NCBI GenBank assembly: GCA_025517425.1
Contig: JAOPJY010000001.1
Coordinates: 186,001 to 250,000 of the forward strand
Length of the DNA: 64,000 nucleotides
Source of the DNA: Halobacteria archaeon AArc-dxtr1
GTDB lineage: Archaea; Halobacteriota; Halobacteria; Halobacteriales; Natrialbaceae
Reading direction: 5' to 3'
Shown: one piece after another, positions 13,599 to 47,605 of the stretch
Numbering within the stretch: position 1 is the first letter of the stretch
Layout: every line of letters begins with the position of its first letter
Translations under genes and position numbers: made by a program
The notes under the pieces: generated by a model
The model's database searches: none
The model's input: the letters and a program-made list of their open reading frames with translations, nothing else
What the model was told of the DNA's origin: nothing

Positions 13599-14438
13599 TC
13601 ACCGCAGCCCGATCTTCGCCGCGAGCCGCTCCCAGCGCCCGTCGCCGATCTCGCCGACCGCCGCCATCTCGTCGTTCGAGAGTTCGAAATCGAACACGTC
13701 GGCGTTCGTCTCGATGTGCTCGCGGCTCGCGGCCTTCGGAATCGCCGCGACCGCGGGTTGTTGAAGCAGCCACCGGAGCGCGACCTGTGCCGCCGACTTC
13801 CCGTGGGATTCGCCGATCGCCGCGAGGCGGTCGTCGCCCGGAACGGCGCCCTCCGCGAGGGGGCTGTAGGCCGTCAGACAGATTCCGTTCTCGGCGCAGT
13901 ACTCGAGCAGGTCGTCCTGGTGGTGGTACGGGTGGTACTTCACCTGGTTCGTGACGATCGGCGTCTCGGAGTGCTCTCGCGCGCGGTCGAGTTGGTCCCG
14001 CGAGAAGTTGCTGACTCCGATGTGTGCGACTGCACCGTCCGCCTGGAGCTCGTTCATCGCCCCGATCGTCTCCGAAACGGGCGTGTGGGGCCGTGGTGCG
14101 TGGATCAACAGGAGGTCGGCCGTCGAGAGCCCCAGCCGATCGAGGCTCCGCCGGGTCGACTCGCGGACGGCCTCCGCCGCGAGGTTTCCCGTGTTGACCT
14201 TGGTCGTCACCCAGACGTCCTCGCGGTCGACGTCGCTCGCGGCGATCGCATCGCCGACGGCAGCCTCGTTGTCGTACATCTGGGCGGTGTCGATGTGGCG
14301 ATAGCCGACCTCGAGGGCGGCCTCGACCGCCCGCCGGCACTCCTCTCCCGTCATCCGCGCGGTGCCGAAGCCGAGGACAGGGATTGCCGCCCCCTGCGCG
14401 TCGACCGTCGCGGTCTCGATCGTCTCGCCGGTGTCCAT
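13599..14438 (-). CDS. Aldo/keto reductase
   Basis: 279 residues, a TIM barrel of the AKR superfamily. The catalytic tetrad is D50, Y55, K80 and H113 (YRHIDTAQMYDNE; VTTKV; LIHAPRP); GVSNFSRDQL and NQVKYHPYHHQDDL follow in the usual order, and IPKAASREHIETN binds the NADP phosphate end. Reduces an aldehyde or ketone with NADPH; substrate unknown. Placed between mutase and epimerase genes. A second AKR lies at 46763-47605. Confidence 0.94.
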   Translation of the reverse strand: MDTGETIETATVDAQGAAIPVLGFGTARMTGEECRRAVEAALEVGYRHIDTAQMYDNEAAVGDAIAASDVDREDVWVTTKVNTGNLAAEAVRESTRRSLDRLGLSTADLLLIHAPRPHTPVSETIGAMNELQADGAVAHIGVSNFSRDQLDRAREHSETPIVTNQVKYHPYHHQDDLLEYCAENGICLTAYSPLAEGAVPGDDRLAAIGESHGKSAAQVALRWLLQQPAVAAIPKAASREHIETNADVFDFELSNDEMAAVGEIGDGRWERLAAKIGLR

Positions 14439-39771: not shown

Positions 39772-40110
39772 CTAGCCGCCCTCGAAATAGTGGTCGTAGT
39801 GTGCGACACAGCCCGGATTGAACGCGACGCCACAGGACGGACACGCGTGGTCGCAGGCGAGGTACGCCGTCGACGTAAGCGTCGTGCCACAGCTGCCACA
39901 GAGTACGGCGGGTTCGTCGAACCGGTCGCGGGGCCACGGTTCGGCTTCGTGGTCGGCAACAGCCTCGTGGCACGCGTGACAGGGGAAAAACGCCTCACAG
40001 CAGCCAAACCGAAGGGCGATCACGTCGCGCTCGCCGTCGTAGTGCGCACACCGGGTTTCGGGGCCAACCTGGACCCCGCGGACCTCGTAGCCGCCGACGA
40101 GACGATCCAT
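39772..40110 (-). CDS. CHY-type zinc finger protein
   Basis: 112 residues from ATG 40110 (40167 also possible). Cysteine/histidine rich: TRCAHYDGERDVIALRFGCC, FFPCHACHEAVADHEAEPW, AVLCGSCGTTLTSTAYL and CPSCGVAFNPGC. These are the spaced C/H pairs of the CHY zinc finger, which holds three metals and mediates protein contacts. Next gene on this strand ends 58 bp upstream. Confidence 0.9.
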   Translation of the reverse strand: MDRLVGGYEVRGVQVGPETRCAHYDGERDVIALRFGCCEAFFPCHACHEAVADHEAEPWPRDRFDEPAVLCGSCGTTLTSTAYLACDHACPSCGVAFNPGCVAHYDHYFEGG

Positions 40111-40168
40111 ACTGGGGTGTGTGAGCCGGATTGCTTCAGTAGCTCGGATCGTTCCAGTCCCCCGCATC

Positions 40169-40885
40169 TCAGTAGCCCGGTAGCACCGGGAGCACGCCCG
40201 CCAGGAGCAACGCCCCACTCACGACGAGCGGGATCGCATCGATTCGCCGAAACTGCAGGGCTGGCAACGTCGGATTCCACGAGAGACAGCGCGTCTGTAG
40301 TGCCAGGGCGAGTCGGTCCCCACGCTGGAAGGCGCGTGTGAGCCCCGTCGTGGCAACCGGACGCATCCGTTCACGGATCGGCTGCTGGTCGCCCAGGCGC
40401 GCCGTCATCGCGTCGCGGATGGCAAACAGGTCACGACGCAATACGGGCAGAAACCGACAGACGAGCCCGACGCCCAGGCTGAGTACGCGACCGACGCGGC
40501 CGGGAACGAGCCGTGCGACTGCCGCCTGAGACTCGCGAACGGCGGTCGTCCTGAGGTACACACCGCTGACGACCAACACGAGGAGGACGCGATAGCTCGA
40601 GAGCAGCGGATCCACTGCATCCGACAGGCGTATCCAGGGCGAGCCGAACGTGAACGCGCCGATCAACGGCGCTGCGAGGAGAAACGGGAACACGAACCGG
40701 TTGGACCGAAGCACCCCCCTCGGCGAGACCCGTGCAGCGAAAACGACGAGGCCGGTAATCACTGTGAGGACGGCGAGTGCGCGCGGATTCGTGTGTGCAA
40801 ACGCTGCCGCAGCGAAGCCAATCTGGCCCAGCAGCTTCGTCCGCGGATCGAGTTGGTGCAGTATCGTCCGGCCAGGCCTGTACAT
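40169..40885 (-). CDS. bioN: ECF transporter T component (EcfT/BioN)
   Basis: 238 residues, five or six membrane helices. RTILHQLDPRTKLLGQIGF is the conserved opening; coupling motifs in the helices that dock onto the ATPases are TARLGD and LQTRCLSW rather than the usual A-R-G. In ECF transporters this protein couples the S component BioY to ATPases. It follows bioY after 70 bp, but no ATPase gene is between or beside them. Confidence 0.85.
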   Translation of the reverse strand: MYRPGRTILHQLDPRTKLLGQIGFAAAAFAHTNPRALAVLTVITGLVVFAARVSPRGVLRSNRFVFPFLLAAPLIGAFTFGSPWIRLSDAVDPLLSSYRVLLVLVVSGVYLRTTAVRESQAAVARLVPGRVGRVLSLGVGLVCRFLPVLRRDLFAIRDAMTARLGDQQPIRERMRPVATTGLTRAFQRGDRLALALQTRCLSWNPTLPALQFRRIDAIPLVVSGALLLAGVLPVLPGY

Positions 40886-40955: not shown

Positions 40956-41540
40956 TCATGCGGGGATGGCCAGATCGTCGCTGCGAATGATGCCGATGGC
41001 AGCAAGGATTTTGACCGCCTCGGCGGGGATGAACACGATTCCACCGGTTACGAACGCTTCCGCCGGTCCGAGTCCGAGAACGATCATCATTCCGGCGATG
41101 CCGCCGGCGTAGATGACGACGGTCCCAGCGATCATGGCGCCGACGAGCACCGGAAGGTTTGCCCTGCGATACTCGCGAACCTCGAGACCTCTGTGGACGA
41201 GCACTCCGATGACGAACGCAGCGAAGGGGTACGAGAGCAGGTAGCCGCCGGTCGGCCCGAGTAGCGCGCCGAACCCGGCTGTCCTGCCGGCAAACACCGG
41301 GACACCGACCGCGCCCGCGAGCAGATAGAGGACCATCGCACCGGCACCCCACACCGGGCCGAGCAATATTCCAGCGAGGAAGACACCGAGCACCTGCAGC
41401 GTGACCGGCGCTGGCGACAGCGGATACGGGAACGAGACGAACGCGAACGCACCCATGAGCGCGGCAAACAGCGCCATTCGCGTGATGTTTACGATGCGAT
41501 CCGGCTGGATTACGTCGACCGATTCGGTCCGCGTTTCCAT
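40956..41540 (-). CDS. bioY: Biotin transporter S component BioY
   Basis: 194 residues, six helices. Family hallmark PLSPAPVTLQVLGVFLAG, LLGPVWGAGAMVLYLLAGAV, GVPVFAGRTAGFGALLGPTG and YLLSYPFAAFVIG. BioY binds biotin and, with EcfT and two ATPases, imports it. The ATG at 41540 lies 13 bases from a BirA-type operator and has an AT-rich box about 25-32 nt upstream, so it is probably leaderless. Divergent from a nitrilase gene. Confidence 0.95.
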   Translation of the reverse strand: METRTESVDVIQPDRIVNITRMALFAALMGAFAFVSFPYPLSPAPVTLQVLGVFLAGILLGPVWGAGAMVLYLLAGAVGVPVFAGRTAGFGALLGPTGGYLLSYPFAAFVIGVLVHRGLEVREYRRANLPVLVGAMIAGTVVIYAGGIAGMMIVLGLGPAEAFVTGGIVFIPAEAVKILAAIGIIRSDDLAIPA

Positions 41541-41553
41541 ACTGGGACGATTC

Positions 41554-41583
41554 CGTAAACCCGTAAAATCTATTCGGTTTACG
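41554..41583. promoter_or_regulatory. BirA-type biotin operator in a bidirectional promoter
   Basis: CGTAAACC (41554-41561), 14 bases, GGTTTACG (41576-41583): a perfect 8-bp inverted repeat. The known bacterial and archaeal BirA box is TTGTAAACC-N14/15-GGTTTACAA; the core GTAAACC-N14-GGTTTAC matches exactly. The spacer holds an AT-rich TAAAATCTAT (41564-41573), 25-34 nt from the nitrilase ATG and about the same from the bioY ATG, so both start sites would be covered. Confidence 0.85.
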
Positions 41584-41597
41584 AAACTCTCTCACGT

Positions 41598-42365
41598 ATG
41601 GAACCGACTGTGGCGGTGTGCCAGCTGGAACTCACCGATCTGGCGACCGAGGCCAATCTCACACGCGTCCGGAAGTGCGTCGACTCCCTCGAGGACGACG
41701 TCGACCTCGCGGTGTTTCCCGAGTACACGCTCACTGGCTTCGTCGCCGACGAACCGCTCGAAACCACCGCACTCGCCCGAGAGAGTGCACCCATCAACAG
41801 CCTCCGATCGATCGCCGACCACCGGAATCTGGCGCTCGTCGTCGGCTTCGTTGAGGCCGCTGGCGACGAGTTCTACAACGCGACTGCGTACATCGGCCCG
41901 GATGGCGAACTGACTGTCTACAGAAAACGTCATCTCTGGGGAACTGAACGGAGCGTGCTTACTCCCGGCAGCGACCTGGTCACCGTCGAGACGCCGATCG
42001 GAACGGCCGGGTTGTTGACGTGCTACGATCTCAACTTCGTCGCCGACAGCGCGTCGCTCGCGTGCGAGGACGTTACGGCGCTGGTGGTCGTCGGGGCGTG
42101 GCCTGCTGCCTACAGCGAAAACTGGCGTCTCCTGCTTCGCGCTCGCGCACTCGATGGCGTTCGGTGGGCGATCGGGGCGAACCGAACGGGAACGAGCGAG
42201 ACGGGTGACTCTCGCTCGAAGCGATACGGTGGCCGGTCGCTGATCGCCCGCCCCGACGGCGGAATCCACCACGCGCTCGATCGACAGGAACGGACGTTCA
42301 TCACCGATCTCGATCCCACGATTCTCACCGCACAGCGCGAACTCACCGGCGTGTTTGACGAGTGA
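41598..42365 (+). CDS. Nitrilase-superfamily amidase, candidate biotin-amide hydrolase
   Basis: 255 residues. Catalytic triad E42 (FPEYTL), K110 (VYRKRHLWG) and C142 (LLTCYDLNF). Single domain, cytoplasmic, no signal. The family hydrolyses C-N bonds of amides or nitriles; biotinidase belongs to it. It is divergent from bioY and shares the BirA-type operator, so release of biotin from biotinylated peptides or amides is a reasonable hypothesis. Ordinary omega-amidase or C-N hydrolase activity is the alternative. Confidence 0.88.
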   Translation: MEPTVAVCQLELTDLATEANLTRVRKCVDSLEDDVDLAVFPEYTLTGFVADEPLETTALARESAPINSLRSIADHRNLALVVGFVEAAGDEFYNATAYIGPDGELTVYRKRHLWGTERSVLTPGSDLVTVETPIGTAGLLTCYDLNFVADSASLACEDVTALVVVGAWPAAYSENWRLLLRARALDGVRWAIGANRTGTSETGDSRSKRYGGRSLIARPDGGIHHALDRQERTFITDLDPTILTAQRELTGVFDE

Positions 42366-46762: not shown

Positions 46763-47605
46763 ATGGAACGCGACACTGCGACGGCGATTGACGCAGCGGC
46801 CTGTCCGCTGGCGAACGGGATGCCGATGCTCGGGCTCGGAACGTGGAAGAACACGGACCCCGAGCAGTGTGCCGAAAGCGTCCGTTTCGCCCTCGAGTCG
46901 GGCTATCGCCACATCGACACCGCCCAGATCTACGAGAACGAGGCCGCTGTCGGCGACGGGATCGCCGCCGCCGACGTCGACCGGGAGGACATCTTCTTGG
47001 CGACGAAGATCTGGACCTCAAATCTCGCACCCGAGGACGTCCTCGAGACGGCCCGTGAGAGCCTGAACCGACTCGGCGTCGAGTACGTCGACCTTCTGTA
47101 CGTCCACTGGCCGACCGGCGCCTACGATCCCCAGGAGACGCTCGCGGCGTTCGACCAGCTCTACGACGAGGGACTGATCGAGGCAGTCGGCGTCAGCAAC
47201 TTCGAACCCGAACAGCTCGACGTCGCTGTGGAGACGTGCGACGCGCCGATCCTCGCGAACCAGGTCGAGTTGCATCCGCTACTTCCCCAGGAAGAGCTTC
47301 GCGAGGCGTGTGCCGCCCACGACGTCGAGGTCGTCGCCTACTCGCCGCTTGCCCACGGTGAGCTCTTCGGCGAACCGACGATCGGTGAGATCGCAGACAA
47401 ACACGGTGTCTCGGAAGCGCAGGTCGCTCTGGCCTGGCTCCGCGAGAAGGGGATCACCGCGATTCCGAAAGCCACCAGTTCCGAGCACATTGCGGACAAC
47501 TGGGCCTCGCTCTCGCTCGACCTCGAGTCCGAGGACGTTGCCGCCATCGACGCTATCGACGAGATCGACCGATTCAACGATCCGGCGATGGCTCCCTGGA
47601 ACTGA
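46763..47605 (+). CDS. Aldo/keto reductase (2)
   Basis: 280 residues. Tetrad D52, Y57, K82, H115 (YRHIDTAQIYENE; LATKIWT; LYVHWPTG); GVSNFEPEQLDVAV, NQVELHPLLPQEEL and IPKATSSEHIADNW complete the AKR pattern. NADPH-dependent reduction of carbonyls; substrate unknown. Paralogue of the AKR at 13599-14438. Confidence 0.94.
   Translation: MERDTATAIDAAACPLANGMPMLGLGTWKNTDPEQCAESVRFALESGYRHIDTAQIYENEAAVGDGIAAADVDREDIFLATKIWTSNLAPEDVLETARESLNRLGVEYVDLLYVHWPTGAYDPQETLAAFDQLYDEGLIEAVGVSNFEPEQLDVAVETCDAPILANQVELHPLLPQEELREACAAHDVEVVAYSPLAHGELFGEPTIGEIADKHGVSEAQVALAWLREKGITAIPKATSSEHIADNWASLSLDLESEDVAAIDAIDEIDRFNDPAMAPWN

Follow-up and report, generated by a model that had tools for sequence, protein, structure and literature searches.

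When a single palindrome resembling the operator of the biotin repressor BirA lies between two divergent genes, here bioY and a nitrilase gene, does it act on one of them or on both, and how could a bacterial-type repressor be fitted to an archaeal promoter? The original prediction took the palindrome for the core of a BirA box, placed its spacer at TATA distance from both start codons and considered the two genes a biotin-responsive pair. The locus belongs to a haloarchaeal genome of 2.8 Mb in 5 contigs, and the window is the whole 64-kb stretch that was analysed (C1:186001-250000). The genome was searched with the pattern GTAAACC-N12..17-GGTTTAC and with protein families, the chance expectation was derived from an order-3 Markov model built on the window, and the comparison covered a class sample of 292 haloarchaeal genomes, one per species, in which the reversed pattern served as negative control for the site search. 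The literature searches made found no experimental work on BirA in haloarchaea. The features discussed below are collected in Table 1.

Table 1. Features around the predicted operator, in window coordinates.
Feature	Position	Strand	Remarks
CHY zinc-finger gene	39772-40218	-	adjoins ecfT
ecfT/bioN-like gene, CbiQ family T component	40169-40885	-	PF02361; 74 nt after bioY
bioY, ECF biotin transporter S component	40956-41540	-	PF02632, 3e-38; second genomic copy, Haloferacaceae-type
Predicted BirA operator, C-GTAAACC-N14-GGTTTAC-G	41554-41583	.	arms 41555-41561 and 41576-41582, CGTAAACC-N14-GGTTTACG; full letters C-GTAAACC-CGTAAAATCTATTC-GGTTTAC-G
N14 spacer, CGTAAAATCTATTC	41562-41575	.	holds weak TATA-like matches in both directions
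TTTTA in the spacer	41564-41568	-	centre 26 nt before the bioY ATG
TCTATT in the spacer	41569-41574	+	centre 26.5 nt before the nitrilase ATG
Carbon-nitrogen hydrolase (nitrilase superfamily)	41598-42365	+	PF00795, 3e-36; divergent from bioY
Aldo/keto-reductase-like gene	46763-47605	+	
Aldo/keto-reductase-like gene	~13647-14384	-	

The Pfam matches confirm the identities first given to the two flanking genes, bioY and a carbon-nitrogen hydrolase. A gap of 57 bp separates their ATGs; the operator arms end 14 nt from that of bioY and 15 nt from that of the nitrilase. Elsewhere in the window, the two aldo/keto-reductase-like genes are 48% identical to each other.

The palindrome is a perfect copy of the BirA-box core GTAAACC-N14/15-GGTTTAC with N14 spacing, situated upstream of a biotin transport gene, and the genome-wide search left it as the only perfect match to the pattern, at any of the spacings, in the 2.8 Mb. 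Tolerating one mismatch adds exactly one N14 site (C1:1344603, L103), 14 nt ahead of the start codon of the other bioY operon, a complete bioY-bioM-bioN; at the two-mismatch site of the genome (L104), no biotin gene was evident among the listed ORFs. Could the window palindrome be just a chance inverted repeat? With three mismatches permitted, about 0.6 matches per 64-kb window are expected, and the whole genome stands at background (29 matches vs 25 in the control). Nonetheless, the expectation for perfect N14 sites is only ~7e-4 per genome, and both the position of the site and the gene adjoining it are conserved across haloarchaea. A chance origin is thus vanishingly improbable, and this reading was dropped as refuted by the conservation.

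BirA signals in archaea are said to have been described by Rodionov, Mironov and Gelfand in 2002 (Genome Res), judging by the accessible part of that work. The BirA consensus is published as TTGTAAACC-N14/15-GGTTTACAA (PMC545781), and the window site shares with the known box and regulon the core half-sites, the N14 spacing, a BirA with a winged helix-turn-helix (wHTH) in the genome and, as targets, bioY and bioB. It departs from the full outer consensus TTGTAAACC...GGTTTACAA, since the outer bases toward bioY are TC...GG. This deviation counts as a variant of the whole haloarchaeal group rather than as an exclusion from the BirA boxes, given that the core is satisfied: in 58 bioY operators the box toward the gene reads yC-GTAAACC-N14-GGTTTAC-GA, without the outer TT/AA. 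Two further departures from the known box are the TATA-like element that bioY operators carry inside the spacer and, in the host genome, the nitrilase on the far side of the operator. Some bioY loci (L188, L205, L208) carry GTCAACC-N14-GGTTGAC, a variant listed for delta-proteobacteria (PMC545781).

The original prediction depended on the genome encoding a BirA with a DNA-binding domain, and such a protein is present. It is encoded at C1:1281535, has 329 aa with an N-terminal HTH_11 followed by BPL and BPL_C, and is the one match of the genome to the BPL family; by its domain composition it is a group II BirA. The group II BirA of Bacillus subtilis binds the operators bioO, yhfU and yuiG (= bioY) only in the presence of biotin and ATP (PMC4016012). 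The two systems are alike in the type of BirA and in having operators at biotin-related genes, the binding in the host being predicted, and they differ in that the B. subtilis operators belong to bacterial promoters, whereas that of the host surrounds an archaeal core promoter. The co-occurrence of BirA and bioY was tested in 28 genomes: a wHTH-BirA was found in 12/12 of the bioY-bearing ones and in 0/13 of those without bioY and BirA, where the family match was absent or too distant to align. In two more (G130, which has a bioB site, and G107) no bioY was detected, yet a wHTH-BirA is present.

A perfect site was found in 82/292 genomes, the reversed control being marked in the rows of 3 genomes, and bioY was found in 277/292. 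The surroundings were read for 68 distinct perfect sites, 64 with N14 and 4 with N12 or N15. All 64 of the N14 sites are at biotin genes (57 at bioY and 7 at bioB). The N12/N15 sites (L003, L006, L076, L099) were treated as chance occurrences, none of them being at bioY or bioB. Furthermore, in 30 additional bioY loci, picked via a family search and hence independently of the site, an N14 site with 0-3 mismatches was found without exception in the same place. Together with the perfect N14 match and the wHTH-BirA, this conservation at bioY and bioB bears out the claim that the palindrome is the core of a BirA box. The comparison strongly supports a genuine predicted BirA operator belonging to the known BirA regulon, and the control of the window bioY by BirA is very likely. 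In haloarchaea that synthesise biotin (L007, L008, L009, L019, L066, L068, L071), the perfect N14 site overlaps the GTG start of bioB, so that the geometry of these sites differs from that of the bioY sites.

How would the repressor act on these promoters? The 58 bioY operators have a position-locked TTnAA in the spacer (T in 52/58, A in 52/58) with GAA upstream, and the ATG follows mostly 14-15 nt past the site. Most mRNAs of H. volcanii have been reported to be leaderless (PMC5892119), and if the mRNA begins at or near the ATG, the register of TTnAA would be the place where a haloarchaeal TATA box with its BRE is expected. At the bioB sites, the box overlaps the start codon and a TTTA-like element stands just upstream. 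Judging by these positions, BirA would mask the core promoter at bioY and the start site at bioB. The window copy fits this scheme less well. Scored against a matrix built from 51 unique bioY operators, its spacer reaches 1.1 bits in the bioY direction and 1.6 in the nitrilase direction, compared with a family median of 10.2, and in spite of being AT-rich it scores no higher than shuffles of its own letters. The earlier statement of a TATA distance to both ATGs is therefore right only loosely, as to the spacing of ~26 and ~26.5 nt, and, given the poor scores both ways, is a weak argument for the window copy. Occlusion of the TATA box appears better supported for the family of bioY operators than for this member.

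Nmag_0886-0888 of Natrialba magadii form a haloarchaeal BioYMN ECF biotin transporter (PMC3403918). The window resembles it in having BioY and the T component (CbiQ/EcfT) clustered, and the other copy of the host is a full bioYMN, but in the window the BioM ATPase is missing between bioY and ecfT. No BioM-like gene was found in the window, nor any remnant in the gap between the two genes, which spans 74 nt here vs 711-906 nt at the other loci measured; bioM is present in the other operon. The host genome is alone among the 292 in having two bioY genes. In the BioY tree, the other host copy groups with its own genus (support 100/99), and the window copy groups with Haloferacaceae (support 94/90) on a long branch of 0.59. 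The simplest reading of the window copy is a transferred cassette minus bioM: most likely, a horizontally acquired bioY-ecfT that brought its own operator and settled upstream of the nitrilase. Its products may use the BioM of the other operon. The CHY zinc-finger gene, for which the four other genomes of the genus gave no match, may be part of the same acquired stretch; the downstream gene, queried in the genus to delimit the insertion, gave a partial match only. A BioB query (L009) gave no match in the host genome, in a search without positive control, which fits a reliance on biotin uptake.

What, then, is the nitrilase doing at this operator? Read directly, the protein has the Glu-Lys-Cys motifs of its superfamily (FPEYTLTGF, YRKRHLWG and TCYDLNF), while no specific NCBIfam model was reached at cut-off. 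Biotinidase is a carbon-nitrogen hydrolase of this superfamily too, which, along with the divergent arrangement over 57 bp and the operator at 14 and 15 nt from the start codons, speaks for a true role of the nitrilase in the biotin regulon: it might, for instance, be an amidase that releases biotin from biocytin or from amides of biotin and is co-induced with the importer in biotin shortage. The comparative evidence goes in the opposite direction. Models and structures put the protein closest to aliphatic amidases, N-carbamoylputrescine amidase and Nit2-like enzymes, the nearest solved structures being Nit2-like and ureidopropionase-like enzymes at ~1e-13. Relatives occur in 80/292 genomes of the class (E up to 1e-30), and the gene is missing from the three same-genus genomes of the sample. 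Among ~88 distinct relatives outside the host genome, examined with 1.5-5 kb of flank each, none is near bioY or a perfect N14/15 site, so that the link to a bio gene or BirA site that would mark a member of the regulon is not conserved in orthologues. In addition, the two genes differ in phylogenetic origin: the nitrilase tree places the protein in a clade of the host's own family, with closest relatives 65-71% identical and none from Haloferacaceae. Either side of the operator therefore has a history of its own, BioY going with Haloferacaceae and the nitrilase with the host family. A co-induced biotin-salvage enzyme is very improbable. We hold slightly less still of the more specific proposal that the nitrilase was newly recruited to the BirA regulon, with one operator switching both uptake and salvage of biotin from amides or biocytin, and give as little credence to its control being a physiologically selected biotin function. 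Of the proposed biotin-responsive pair, what stands is the BirA operator at bioY; the link to the nitrilase is not supported by the comparison, the adjacency being exclusive to the host genome and the gene origins different.

Control of both genes by one operator is, nevertheless, physically plausible from the 57-bp gap. Alternatively, the operator might act on bioY alone, the promoter elements of the nitrilase not being effectively blocked by BirA or the gene being barely expressed. The poor TATA match toward the nitrilase agrees with this, as does the finding that the nitrilases of the relatives have their own, unrelated upstream sequence, with a T-rich box near -30 and no perfect BirA site; however, 57 bp are too short for another promoter unless it lies inside bioY, and homologues whose alignment begins at residue 1 back the start codon of the nitrilase. 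On balance, we regard action on bioY alone as possible though rather unlikely, and an effect of BirA on the nitrilase through physical crowding as somewhat probable. As to whether other genes may share a bioY operator in this way, a noisy search around other bioY operators for ORFs running in the opposite direction found the start of a similar, non-nitrilase protein at a few Haloferacaceae loci, where other genes may share the operator. At three of the loci in that family (L024, L027, L088), the far side of the BirA site holds the start of a protein, divergent from bioY, that begins with MDEKTAELRD... or a like sequence.

Taken as a whole, a BirA operator on an acquired bioY-ecfT, with the nitrilase probably a bystander affected by its position, is the explanation that we favour with considerable confidence, and it would work as follows. 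With ample biotin, BirA carrying biotinyl-AMP would dimerise and bind both arms; the bound protein would cover the core promoter of bioY, presumably occluding TBP/TFB, and shut off synthesis of the second biotin importer. Under biotin shortage, the operator would be free and bioY-ecfT would be expressed. The same switch would govern the canonical bioYMN operon and, in the haloarchaea that make biotin, bioB. The acquired bioY-ecfT would have kept its operator, lost bioM and come to lie head-to-head with an unrelated nitrilase, which, since the start codons are just 57 bp apart, BirA binding probably represses too, as a by-product of position.

These results support a BirA regulon that takes in bioY and bioB throughout the haloarchaea and uses a highly specific site, and the TATA-like element in the bioY spacer and the overlap with the bioB start codon suggest how a repressor of bacterial type is accommodated in an archaeal promoter. 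Nitrilases should not be annotated as biotin genes from the window locus, which illustrates from nature how an operator, once transferred, may capture the gene beside it.
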